From a virus, in the IMG/VR virus record IMGVR_UViG_3300028553_000100, positions 1-34,080 of that record: DNA of 34,080 bases; one strand, written 5' to 3'. Position numbers and translations under genes: made by a program. Of the stretch, positions 12,549 through 18,228 are shown piece after piece (within the stretch, counting starts at the first letter, position 1; every line of letters starts with the position of its first letter). The notes beneath the pieces are model-generated. The model was given only the letters and a program-made list of their open reading frames with translations. It ran no database searches and was not told where the DNA came from.

Positions 12549-12739
12549 AACGTATATTTATTACCATATTCCTGTAGGGCTTTAATTCTTGCAGATTCAA
12601 GTTTTTTCAATATACGTTCGGGTAATTCTGTATCATCATCCCAAAGATTATTTGTGACTAGTCTAGGACGACTATAACTACGATGAAAGTCTAAATCAAC
12701 TATATCATAGTTATCGTCATCATTTAGTTCACTTGCCAG
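12545..12739 (-). CDS. Conserved-looking protein lacking a standard start (about 64 aa)
   Basis: The frame ends with TGA overlapping the SGNH gene start (ATGA) and codes for an acidic then basic stretch (FHRSYSRPRLV, later ELPERILKKLESARIKALQE) that resembles a small family in aquatic T4-like phages. The problem is its start. In this frame there is no ATG, GTG or TTG between the end of the secreted-protein gene and the conserved part; the only ATG (12826) would force a 98-base overlap through sequence that merely mirrors the neighbour's Lys/Pro-rich codons. I give the first in-frame CTG (12739) as a placeholder. A +1 frameshift at the AAG-TGA end of the upstream gene is another possibility. 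Confidence 0.5.
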   Translation of the reverse strand: MASELNDDDNYDIVDLDFHRSYSRPRLVTNNLWDDDTELPERILKKLESARIKALQEYGNKYTL

Positions 12740-12989
12740 CTGGCTTGGTGTCTGCCTTAGGAGCAGTTGTTGCTGTAGTCTTTTCTGTCTTGGCAGGTGC
12801 ACTTTTAGTATCTGCTTTGGGAGCATCCTTTTTCTTAGCTAGTTTCATTTCTTCTTTTGGTGCTTCTACTTTAGCGGGTGCTGTAACAGCTGGCGCCGTT
12901 TTGGCAATACCTTCGGGTTGTTTGGCAGCTTGTGCGAAGGCAGAACCGATACTGAAAGAGGCGATGATTGCGATTGCTAATGTTTTCAT
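12729..12989 (-). CDS. Secreted Ala/Lys/Pro-rich protein (86 aa)
   Basis: Residues 1-19 (MKTLAIAIIASFSIGSAFA) are a typical signal peptide with an AFA cleavage site. The mature part is almost entirely Ala, Lys, Pro, Thr and Glu, with repeated KAPAKT/APKADTK-type units, so it is probably disordered and positively charged. Such a protein could bind peptidoglycan, nucleic acid or a surface polymer in the periplasm; no homologue is recognised. AAAGGAAAC precedes the ATG and a late-type TATAAATC promoter lies 28 bases upstream. Confidence 0.75.
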   Translation of the reverse strand: MKTLAIAIIASFSIGSAFAQAAKQPEGIAKTAPAVTAPAKVEAPKEEMKLAKKKDAPKADTKSAPAKTEKTTATTAPKADTKPAGK

Positions 12990-13025: not shown

Positions 13026-13066
13026 TGTCTACATATATATAACGCGGCAGCTATTGATTCCGTTGA

Positions 13067-13074
13067 CATAAATA
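13067..13074 (+). promoter_or_regulatory. Late-type promoter with near-leaderless start
   Basis: CATAAATA is followed after only 6 bases by ATG 13081, so the transcript should begin at or one base before the ATG. A TTGACA at 13064-13069 overlaps it, but no good -10 box stands at the right distance upstream of the gene, so the late reading is preferred. Confidence 0.5.
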
Positions 13075-13080
13075 CATATT

Positions 13081-13572
13081 ATGTTATATATATCTTATCA
13101 GGGAATTTACGACGGGCAAAACTATGAAGATGCCAATACTCCAAAACAAATAAACAAAGCACTCGGCAAAGGATTTAGTTGTTTAATATATGTTTGGCGT
13201 ATTAACAATAAACTATATGTTGGTAACGGGCAACCAGTTATTGAAGTAACCGAAAAATACATTCAAGGTCCGCGCTTTTGGATTAACGCTGTAAATACTG
13301 ATATGCAAACTTGGATAGCTACCCAATCAAGTACATTGTATCCAAATTATTTTACTTTTGCGGCAAGTACTCCGCCCCCACCGTATGCTACTGCTAGCAA
13401 TGGTAAATTGATTACTCCGGGCACAGTACCTATCAATATTAATAGTGTTATGTTTTTACCAGAAATAAATGACCGTAGCCTGTATACTATGGTTAAAGTA
13501 AAAAGTTACGGTATATGTAGCGGATTCTTAACTCTCATTAAACGTATGCGTAATGAGGGTATTTGGTATTAA
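13081..13572 (+). CDS. Degenerate GDPD-like phosphodiesterase (likely pseudoenzyme)
   Basis: A 163-residue protein that aligns by eye with small phage and bacterial PLC/GDPD-like phosphodiesterases, whose pattern is ISHRG, GFDVEIDVW, LYLGHDEP, LWCHAKN and a late YGICSDY. The scaffold is present: YISYQG at 3-8, GFSCLIYVW at 31-39, LYVGNGQP at 45-52, FWINAVN at about 66-72, and SYGICSGF near the end. Yet each catalytic position appears changed: His6 to Tyr, Arg7 to Gln, Glu35 to Leu, Asp37 to Tyr, His49 to Asn, and the last His to Asn. The reading frame is intact, so the protein is probably kept for binding rather than hydrolysis. It is an isolated plus-strand gene converging on the small basic protein at 13569, with its 3' end overlapping. 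No Shine-Dalgarno sequence precedes the ATG. Confidence 0.75.
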   Translation: MLYISYQGIYDGQNYEDANTPKQINKALGKGFSCLIYVWRINNKLYVGNGQPVIEVTEKYIQGPRFWINAVNTDMQTWIATQSSTLYPNYFTFAASTPPPPYATASNGKLITPGTVPININSVMFLPEINDRSLYTMVKVKSYGICSGFLTLIKRMRNEGIWY

Positions 13573-13733
13573 CCACCCCTGCCGGTACGTCTAACTACAC
13601 TAGCACCACCGAATCCTTTACTAGGCTTAGGAGCTTTTTGTTCAACTTTTTTACCTGTAATTGCGGGAGTATTTTTCTTTTTAGCTTCGTTGGCTAAATT
13701 AATAAATGGATTTGGATTTTTCTTTTCTGTCAT
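13569..13733 (-). CDS. Small basic protein (54 aa)
   Basis: ATG 13733 to TAA 13569. It is Lys-rich with a Gly/Arg-rich end (GFGGASVVRRTGRGG) that could bind nucleic acid. The start overlaps the stop of the preceding 134-residue gene (ATGA). Its stop codon overlaps that of the plus-strand GDPD-like gene tail to tail. Function unknown. Confidence 0.65.
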   Translation of the reverse strand: MTEKKNPNPFINLANEAKKKNTPAITGKKVEQKAPKPSKGFGGASVVRRTGRGG

Positions 13734-15095: not shown

Positions 15096-15123
15096 ATAAT
15101 AACATATTTTCATTTTAAGTCAA
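15096..15123 (-). promoter_or_regulatory. Sigma70-type promoter with extended -10
   Basis: TTGACT (15118-15123), 16-base spacer ending TGT, then TATTAT (15096-15101). The TG before the -10 box makes it an extended -10 promoter. The -35 box lies inside the last codons of the radical-SAM gene, and the transcript reads the 154-residue gene. Confidence 0.65.
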
Positions 15124-16639
15124 TAGATTTGGTTAACCTATTAAACAATAGATTCTTGTATGCTTCAATATATAAATTTTTGTTAAGGGTGATATCTTGC
15201 CATTTTATTTCATTATACTTGGTATTTGAAATGTAATCATCTGTATATCCTAAATTCTTTAACGAAAATCCTATCTGCCCGGGCAAGCCTAGTCTATTAC
15301 TATTTTGTGCTGTTGTATTAAACTCGTTTGCTAACTCGTTTGCAATCGTATTATCTAAATGTTGATTTTTCCAATTGATTTTAGGACTATTATGATCCGT
15401 ATTTAGTTCGGTATAACCGTAATCTTTAAAATTTTTACCCAATTCACTATTGAAGGGTACGGATTCATTCTTGTATAAACTTAACCCATGAAATATAAAC
15501 GTATGTAACGGGATACTATTATCCATTAGTTGATTAAAAGTATGTCGCATGGAATCTATTGGTTCTTCTGGTAATCCTAATATAAAACTTCCGTGCATTG
15601 TTACTTGATTACCATATCGTTCACGTATTTGTTTTATAGTATTGATTTGTTTTTCCCTATCAAATCCCTTACCAATTATTAATCCTGTGCGTTTATGAAG
15701 TGTCTCAATTCCGAAATAAATCCCACGCAAGCCAATCTCATATAACTTATCAATCAATTCATTGTTCTGTGCTATTAAATCTAACCGTGTATAGGCCCAG
15801 AACTTAGGTTGAAAGGTCAATCGTTTGATTGTGTTGTGTAGTATATCCAATTTATATGTACTATCATTGAAAGTATCATCAAGTATATAAAAATTAGATA
15901 CACCAAACTTGTCATAGCTTGATTGCATTTCTTCATATAAGATATCACTGTGTCTAATAAAATCTAAGTTCTGTTTTCCATTCAATGGATAACTACAAAA
16001 CTTACATTTAAAAATACATCCACGTGCTATCTCTAATGGTAATACCTTAGCATTTCCAACATCTAAATCTTCCCATTCAAATTTGCTATTGACAAAATTA
16101 TAGTTATCATTTGTTCTGTTATCAACTATTGTAATACCATATAAATTTTTATAGCTATTAACTAGTGGTGTATTATTTTTTAAATGATTAGCGATAGATA
16201 GAATACTGACTTCCCCGTATCCAATCACACTATAATCTATGTTCTTATCATTTAAGTTAGCGTGAGCCTTTGTACCGCCTACTACAATTTTACAGTTATA
16301 GTTTCTGGATTTAATATGATTAACAACACAAGTTTCAAAATCAATACCCTGTGGTATAACTCCGGACAATACAGGTTTATATGTTTTTGACCCATCTATG
16401 TTAGTAGAGTCAATGATGTTATTAAAGAAGGTTGTACTGAATCCTACAAACAACGTATTAACTGATACTGATTTGTCAATGACTTGTTTAATCTCATCTA
16501 AATTAAATGCGTGTAGGTGATCCACGACTAAACATCTATATCCTTGTTGTCGTAGAGTATTAGCAATCTTATATGCACCGATTGCTTTATAGATAGTTAC
16601 TGTATCGGTTACATCAGTAAAAATTACTGCATCATACAT
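15110..16639 (-). CDS. B12-binding-type radical SAM protein (509 aa)
   Basis: The N-terminal 150 residues have the Rossmann-like pattern of a cobalamin-binding domain (hydrophobic strands, then KIVVGGTKAH and VIGYGEVS), and the radical-SAM core begins at PLEIARGCIFKCKFC with the CxxxCxxC cluster at Cys208, Cys212 and Cys215. The YFGIET and GSFILGLPEE segments further on are typical of class B radical SAM enzymes. Such enzymes do methylation, methylthiolation or ring-forming chemistry; the substrate cannot be told from sequence, and the DxHxxG motif that marks B12 binding is not obvious. A second radical-SAM protein lies two genes upstream (17089). Confidence 0.88.
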   Translation of the reverse strand: MYDAVIFTDVTDTVTIYKAIGAYKIANTLRQQGYRCLVVDHLHAFNLDEIKQVIDKSVSVNTLFVGFSTTFFNNIIDSTNIDGSKTYKPVLSGVIPQGIDFETCVVNHIKSRNYNCKIVVGGTKAHANLNDKNIDYSVIGYGEVSILSIANHLKNNTPLVNSYKNLYGITIVDNRTNDNYNFVNSKFEWEDLDVGNAKVLPLEIARGCIFKCKFCSYPLNGKQNLDFIRHSDILYEEMQSSYDKFGVSNFYILDDTFNDSTYKLDILHNTIKRLTFQPKFWAYTRLDLIAQNNELIDKLYEIGLRGIYFGIETLHKRTGLIIGKGFDREKQINTIKQIRERYGNQVTMHGSFILGLPEEPIDSMRHTFNQLMDNSIPLHTFIFHGLSLYKNESVPFNSELGKNFKDYGYTELNTDHNSPKINWKNQHLDNTIANELANEFNTTAQNSNRLGLPGQIGFSLKNLGYTDDYISNTKYNEIKWQDITLNKNLYIEAYKNLLFNRLTKSIDLK

Positions 16640-16908: not shown

Positions 16909-17092
16909 TTTTTAATTCCATAACAGGTGCAATACTATTATCAAAAATCTGAGCCATTGTGTTGTACAATCCTTTACGCTCTTCCGGTGTCATTCCTGAT
17001 AACCAAGGAGGACCATTTGAATCTTTATCTAATCCATAATCATGTCGATATGTATAGCACATATCAGTAATGATTTCTTCACGTGATTTCAT
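16892..17092 (-). CDS. Small hypothetical protein (66 aa)
   Basis: Contains the Pro/Gly-rich middle NGPPWLSGMTPEERKGLYN between two helices. Its start overlaps the stop of the SPASM/twitch-like radical-SAM gene (ATGA), and its end overlaps the 89-residue gene by 17 bases. Possible accessory of the radical-SAM pair; not established. Confidence 0.65.
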   Translation of the reverse strand: MKSREEIITDMCYTYRHDYGLDKDSNGPPWLSGMTPEERKGLYNTMAQIFDNSIAPVMELKNGKSR

Positions 17093-18228
17093 GGTAACTT
17101 TCCTAGCACACTACAGGTATCTTTTAATAGATTATAAAATTCGGGTAATGACTCACTAAACTTTTGATTTCTATGCTCGTCAAGTGTTATTATATACTTG
17201 AATGCCTTTTCTAGTAACTTTTGGTTGTCCTCTCCAATCATATAACTTAATACCTGTTGTGAGTGCGGATCAATTAATTTGTTACACAAGTATTCTTTTG
17301 TATTTTTGCTCAACATATTGACACTGTAATAATCTGGTCTAAACACCATACCTATAAAAGGTTTGGGAAGTTGTTCATCTCTACACCATTGTAAAAAATC
17401 ATCAACATAGAATATATTAAATATGCTTAGTGTATGTGAAATACTTAATTGTAAATTAGTATACTCTTTTTCTTTATTTTGGTATGATTTAATATTGTCA
17501 TATACTTCTGACCAAACACCGGGCCATCTTGTATATTCATACACTTTATGTGTGCCATCAATACTTAATTGCATATCAATTTTTTTAAAATTATTCCATC
17601 TAGACCAAAATCTTTCATCAGGCATGATGGTGCAATTTGTAGTATAATGTATGGTTATGTTTTTAGCATTGTGTTCAATCAGATAATCTAAGTATTCTAA
17701 GTGAGTTTCAGTACCGGTTACAAATGGTTCGCCACCGGGAACCTCAATCAATATTAGATTATCTGATATACTTTTGATATTTTCAAGGAAGTTTTCTTCT
17801 GCATAATATCTATTGTGCGGCCATGATTTAGTTTCAGGAAACACCTCTTTTAATTTTTGTTCTTCTGAAAGCCAACGACTGCTTGCATAACTTCTGCAAC
17901 TTCTACAAGCAAGATTACATATATTGCCAAAAGGAACACATAATGCTTTTATGTGACTTAGATCAGGAACTGTTTCTTCAAAAACGTATTTCCAATCACG
18001 TTGTCTTTTAGATTCAACCTTTACAGATTCATCTTTCCAACATCTACTACATCCGGCTGGTTTCTTACCGTCAATAAAATCTTGTTTAAGTTGTGCTAAT
18101 TCATCACTTGCTAAATAATCTTCCAGTGTGTTGGCAATAATATTGGAATATTTACAACATGGTCTAAAATCATGTTGCACTCCTATATCAATACCAACCC
18201 AGGGATAATAGCAAATGTTGTCGTTCAT
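17089..18228 (-). CDS. Twitch/SPASM-type radical SAM protein (379 aa)
   Basis: The radical-SAM cluster motif GNICNLACRSC places Cys104, Cys108 and Cys111 after a Cys-bearing N-terminal segment (Cys6, Cys24/Cys25, Cys60 and Cys63) of the twitch/SPASM kind that normally binds an extra iron-sulfur cluster. Here the auxiliary Cys group is N-terminal rather than C-terminal. EVPGGEPF at about 165-172 is the GGE motif that contacts SAM. Enzymes of this class modify peptides or proteins, but no short precursor peptide with a leader was recognised nearby, so a peptide-modification role is only possible. Its stop overlaps the next gene (ATGA). Confidence 0.85.
   Translation of the reverse strand: MNDNICYYPWVGIDIGVQHDFRPCCKYSNIIANTLEDYLASDELAQLKQDFIDGKKPAGCSRCWKDESVKVESKRQRDWKYVFEETVPDLSHIKALCVPFGNICNLACRSCRSYASSRWLSEEQKLKEVFPETKSWPHNRYYAEENFLENIKSISDNLILIEVPGGEPFVTGTETHLEYLDYLIEHNAKNITIHYTTNCTIMPDERFWSRWNNFKKIDMQLSIDGTHKVYEYTRWPGVWSEVYDNIKSYQNKEKEYTNLQLSISHTLSIFNIFYVDDFLQWCRDEQLPKPFIGMVFRPDYYSVNMLSKNTKEYLCNKLIDPHSQQVLSYMIGEDNQKLLEKAFKYIITLDEHRNQKFSESLPEFYNLLKDTCSVLGKLP

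Follow-up and report, generated by a model that had tools for sequence, protein, structure and literature searches.

The open reading frame (ORF) at 13081-13572 of the window, which is the whole 34,080-base IMG/VR virus record, encodes a pseudo-GDPD: a homologue of GDPD-like phosphodiesterases that has lost the catalytic set, is maintained by purifying selection, occupies a fixed genomic site where it was gained or lost only once, and is preceded by a late-type promoter element. The best explanation of these data, and one that we give an even chance of being right, is that the scaffold now serves as a binding protein that acts late and is probably associated with the virion or its assembly. 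Pseudoenzymes are well known as a kind of protein, and no description of a phage pseudo-GDPD was found in the literature searched, the coverage of which was incomplete. The family represents a natural case of a phage enzyme fold reused without catalysis. The uncultured jumbo phages that carry it recur in many metagenomes, and it offers a well-defined and testable candidate for a late or virion protein of theirs that has gone unrecognised.

Nearly all genes of the window lie on the minus strand. The pseudo-GDPD ORF lies on the plus strand and runs uninterrupted from ATG to TAA through 163 codons, solitary within a block of small minus-strand genes and outside any structural gene cluster. The sequence-only reading had described a lone plus-strand gene with a late-type element, which is confirmed here. 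The features of the site are as follows.

13081-13572, plus strand: pseudo-GDPD ORF, 163 aa (MLYISYQG...RMRNEGIWY), from the reading frame, homologues and the residue table
13068-13074, plus strand: late-type promoter element ATAAATA, 6 nt before the ATG, with no Shine-Dalgarno sequence; position read directly and compared with relatives
13027-13067, minus strand: conserved upstream stretch GTCTACATATATATAACGC...CCGTTGAC, also present at sites without the pseudo-GDPD gene
13569-13733, minus strand: small basic gene, 54 aa, MTEKKNPNPFINLANEAKKK...GRGG, conserved neighbour F5, from sequence reading
12729-12989, minus strand: short Lys/Ala-rich protein with a signal-peptide-like N-terminus (F17), the other border of the site

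Elsewhere in the window, two radical-SAM-like genes can be read from the sequence at 15110-16639 and 17089-18228.

Relation to GDPD-like proteins and loss of the catalytic residues

The window protein belongs to a family with more than 190 contig hits, from which 81 distinct sequences were examined. Neither the window protein nor any of three intact phage relatives is assigned to a Pfam family, all of them falling below the Pfam cut-off. A profile search did match the window protein to PHROG 34507 (E 7e-8), a family without assigned function that includes Synechococcus phage proteins with intact HR, EID, GHDE and W(I/L)HCK motifs, and hhalign aligned a 54-member window family with 41 intact relatives across columns 1-157 (probability 99.9, E 5.7e-31). 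The intact relatives in turn match the solved GDPD enzyme 7e0v by sequence over HR..EID..GHD (E 3e-4). The intact-family model (pLDDT 96) has 1zcc, 7e0v and 2pz0 among its best Foldseek matches, with probabilities of 0.8-0.99 but E values of 0.004-0.1, and the spike of phage phi812 (9eul) as a weak one. A model of the window family alone is of moderate quality (pLDDT 71.7, with residues 129-163 below 50); its match in BFVD is a 151-aa phage protein (E 6e-9, TM 0.62/0.66), with giant-virus GP-PDE proteins ranking below it. Given the PHROG, hhalign, 7e0v and model matches, the relation to GDPD is regarded as firm by sequence profile and, less clearly, supported by predicted fold. The GDPD-like scaffold claimed from the letters alone was borne out by profile searches, while structural comparison gave a mixed picture: there is the BFVD match, but a PDB fold search with the same moderate model gave nothing significant at E 0.001. 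A PDB sequence search with the window family returned chance hits only.

Catalytic positions were compared in an alignment of the 81 distinct window-family sequences with 59 intact ones. Every intact relative (59/59) has H6, R7, E35, D37, H49, D50, H69, K71, H93, D96 and D148. Columns 49-51 are conserved in this set partly by construction, because the search patterns contained GHDE; columns 6, 7, 35, 37, 69, 71, 93 and 148 are free of this bias. H6, E35, H49, H69, H93 and D148 are missing from all 81 members of the window family. Both catalytic histidines of active GDPD have therefore been replaced throughout, H6 by Tyr in every sequence and H49 by T, N, V, S and others. Among the metal-ligand columns, E35 (now M, L or N) and H69 (N in 76/81, otherwise S or K), which judging by the alignment is probably the equivalent of the third metal ligand, are lost in 81/81, while D37 is kept in 53 and replaced by N in 23 and by Y in five, including the window protein. 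Position 7 is Q in 72 sequences, R in five, L in three and K in one; H93 has become F (79/81) or Q, and D148 has become T, N, G, S or C. YISYQG served as the pattern for recovering part of the window family; the members recovered with other patterns all carry Tyr6, with position 7 variable. No intermediates between the intact and window families were found in either search, both being pattern-limited.

For the window protein, the six replacements named from the sequence alone (H6Y, R7Q, E35L, D37Y, H49N and H69N) are all correct, and K71V, H93F, D96S, W111I and D148G can be added. When the loss of all sites is extended to the whole family it holds for H6, E35, H49 and H69 but not for D37 or R7, and Tyr37 of the window protein is a local feature rather than a family-wide one.

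PHROG 34507, exemplified by Synechococcus phages S-SM2, SynMITS9220M01 and S-PRM1 and including a DSL-LC03 record annotated as glycerophosphoryl diester phosphodiesterase, shares its length class and apparently its fold with the window family, at 24-32% identity in a whole-domain alignment. PHROG 34507-type relatives differ in retaining the full catalytic set (59/59) and in lying in sugar-nucleotide/capsule clusters, whereas the window family has no catalytic histidines and has acquired an additional C-terminal motif and its own late-type promoter. Cellular GDPD enzymes (7e0v, 1zcc, 2pz0) resemble the intact relatives in fold and in their HR, E-x-D and H-D motifs; they are active and form larger barrels (228-255 aa), unlike the window family, which has no Pfam GDPD match.

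Selection, newly conserved columns and the old pocket

The window family forms a single clade (support 100/100), set apart by a stem of 1.66 changes per site. Pairwise Nei-Gojobori estimates from pairs with dS of 0.1-1 gave a median dN/dS of 0.08 for the window family (187 pairs) versus 0.24 for the intact family (40 pairs), and the invariant residues of the window family carry many synonymous codon changes. The dead clade is thus under purifying selection and is more constrained than its enzyme relatives, and its gene context and promoter class have changed as well. It had been suggested from the intact frame that the gene was selected for another task, and the 81 distinct intact relatives, the low dN/dS, the single clade and the newly invariant columns described below all uphold that suggestion. 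The absence of every catalytic residue from the window protein is what might be expected of a decaying pseudogene or a chance ORF, but this explanation is refuted, and left with practically no probability, by a frame that is intact in 81 distinct sequences, by the median dN/dS, by synonymous changes at invariant residues and by the conserved promoter spacing; decay is likewise rejected by the fixation of new columns.

Of the well-conserved columns of the intact family, the window family keeps thirteen, mostly scaffold G, P, I, W, F, S and C; seven have changed to another fixed residue, and 34 columns are newly fixed. The newly fixed columns include W78, YPNYF 87-91 (Y87 to Y90), TPG 112-114, LPEIxD 126-131 (LPEI 126-129 and D131) and, at the C-terminus, R155, M156, R157, E159 and G160 of an RMRxEGxW motif in a region that most intact relatives lack. 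The newly invariant residues are mostly away from the old GDPD site. Invariant polar residues (Q23, E128, D131, R155, R157 and E159) could be taken to indicate that the fold now carries another catalytic set and works as a new enzyme, but none of them occupies a catalytic column and the pocket columns contain no invariant acid, histidine or lysine, making this a very improbable explanation.

The old pocket itself has become hydrophobic at E35 (M/L), H93 (F) and W111 (I), and columns 49, 50, 71, 96 and 148 are free to vary. These changes bear on the proposal, made from the sequence alone, that the protein binds a phosphate- or glycan-containing ligand at the old site, which is so far unsupported. 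A pseudo-GDPD whose pocket, with Y6, Q7 and N69, holds a phosphate, nucleotide or glycan uncleaved, acting for instance as a sponge or in receptor binding, would account for the high conservation of these polar replacements and would suit a family whose intact relatives are located in sugar-nucleotide clusters. On the other hand, the positive charges of R7 and K71 have not been kept, and the hydrophobic or unconstrained character of the remaining pocket positions tells against the reading. Binding of a ligand at the old site is weakly supported, and we consider it unlikely to be the function of the protein.

The late-type element and the proposed role

TAAATA lies 4-8 nt before the ATG in all 80 relatives checked, with a Shine-Dalgarno sequence in none of the 80, compared with 2/59 intact relatives that have TAAATA anywhere in the last 30 nt upstream. 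The T4 late promoter is TATAAATA at -13 to -6 and T4-type late promoters vary to CTAAATA in Aeh1 (PMC1524935); furthermore, a motif resembling TATAAATA has been reported for the Rak2-like jumbo phage CBB (PMC5259590). The window gene has such an element upstream and is similar in this to T4-type late genes, in T4-like genomes with gp23, but it differs in its 4-8 nt element-to-start spacing and its lack of a Shine-Dalgarno sequence, and it is a putative member of the late, gp55-dependent class. If T4 spacing applies, a start codon so close to the element would place the transcript start at or next to the ATG, and the mRNA would be leaderless or nearly so.

In a 352-kb relative, [AC]TAAATA precedes 61 of 328 genes versus 1.7 expected. 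Among the families downstream of it are portal, terminase, tail tube, baseplate wedge, virion structural, tail fibre and head-tail adaptor proteins; non-structural genes (exonuclease, GTP cyclohydrolase and NifU-like) occur there too. A matched control set consists mostly of ribonucleotide reductase, DNA polymerase, thymidylate synthase and endonucleases, and it also contains two structural families. The TAAATA element is real, but it marks a wider class of genes in which virion genes are numerous. In the 352-kb relative (L219-L236) its spacings fall mainly into two classes, 4-7 and 15-24 nt; the former leaves no room for a Shine-Dalgarno sequence, which suggests a class of near-leaderless late genes in that genome.

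A dead protein that is strongly selected and has its own late-type promoter probably fulfils a structural or binding function at a late stage of infection. A late binding or assembly protein is the simplest reading, given a lost catalytic site, a constrained scaffold and new surfaces, and a late signal that is that of virion genes. The ancestor would have been a small GDPD-like phosphodiesterase like those found in the sugar-nucleotide/capsule gene clusters of T4-like cyanophages. After the acid/base residues and the metal and phosphate ligands had been lost, the gene for the dead protein would have been fixed as a stable component of an uncultured clade of T4-like jumbo phages, where a T4-type late promoter lying 4-8 nt upstream of the start codon would drive it as a single transcription unit. 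Late in infection the protein would most likely serve, in or on the virion or during assembly, as a rigid binding or assembly scaffold that works without catalysis and contacts protein partners through the new surfaces at W78, YPNYF, TPG, LPEIxD and the C-terminal RMRxEGxW. Late expression, a virion or assembly role and partner binding are each proposed here on the basis of sequence features.

GDPD domains are known from phage tail parts, such as enterococcal tail lysins (PMC10194240) and, as cited in that paper, the baseplate of phage Ld17. These proteins, and the phi812 spike, resemble the role proposed here in placing a GDPD scaffold in a virion part. The enterococcal tail GDPDs retain the conserved catalytic residues (PMC10194240) and come from phages of Gram-positive bacteria; no sequence link between tail GDPDs and the window family was found.

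The genomic site and the phages that carry it

The pseudo-GDPD gene occupies the same site in 52 of 54 loci, between an F17-type gene and the small basic gene, the stop codon of which overlaps the pseudo-GDPD stop codon, the two genes being convergent. The genes at 12729-12989 and 13569-13733 flank the site in most relatives. Among 48 loci chosen by the neighbouring gene and with enough sequence, 37 have the pseudo-GDPD gene and 11 do not, and at several gene-free sites the basic-gene stop runs straight into the promoter stretch of the other neighbour. The conserved stretch at 13027-13067 was considered as part of the pseudo-GDPD promoter and rejected; it is assigned to the minus-strand neighbour because gene-free sites have it too.

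A tree of flanking DNA separates filled (48) from empty (15) loci by one change (support 96), meaning one gain or one loss of the gene, on a tree that is unrooted and a sample that leans towards relatives of the window. No loss was seen among the 48 filled loci. A single gain or loss at a known site permits a before/after comparison. A more specific reading is put forward tentatively and is more doubtful than the general one: in a T4-like jumbo phage clade that is widespread, the dead scaffold would have become a permanent structural component of the virion, such as a decoration of the head or tail or a receptor-binding protein, after being gained a single time as a minimal cassette of promoter plus ORF.

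The same genomic data bear on the possibility of a late factor outside the virion, which as a decoy or regulator would bind a host protein or an active paralog late in infection, with lysis timing or exclusion of other phages as the proposed purpose. The gene stands by itself, has its own promoter, is gained or lost like a cassette and has copies next to tRNA-Gly, and in this it resembles an accessory gene; inspection of the sequence by eye reveals neither a signal peptide nor a membrane segment. However, the absence of losses in 48 filled loci and the very low dN/dS suggest a lasting, conserved partner, which would be more phage-like than a fast-evolving host target, and an active paralog is present in only one of 18 records, many of these being fragments. 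Such a factor is therefore judged improbable. The record with the paralog, of 100 kb, shows that one genome still holds both dead and intact forms; its intact gene adjoins a HAD/nucleotidyltransferase gene in a sugar cluster.

No relative was found in the bacterial genome contigs searched and no member of the window family in the cultured phages searched; a comparison of the window's ligase gene with cultured phages at the DNA level likewise gave no match. T4 gp23 was present in five of the 18 records tested and was nearest in sequence to that of jumbo phages, e.g. Sinorhizobium phage Phosso and Salmonella phage 7t3.

Four members have relocated, three of them lying directly behind tRNA-Gly(GCC) and one (L117:4001) about 0.5 kb behind such a gene; all four (L080:4001, L105:4001, L125:4001 and L117:4001) retain the TAAATA element. 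Upstream of one relocated copy (L080:47-1705), a subtilisin-like protease gene can be recognised by eye beside a PP-loop/asparagine-synthase-like gene. One IMG/VR record of 524,565 bp (L021/L044) contains two copies of the whole locus in opposite orientation, 84% and 93% identical to the window protein, and may join two phage genomes.
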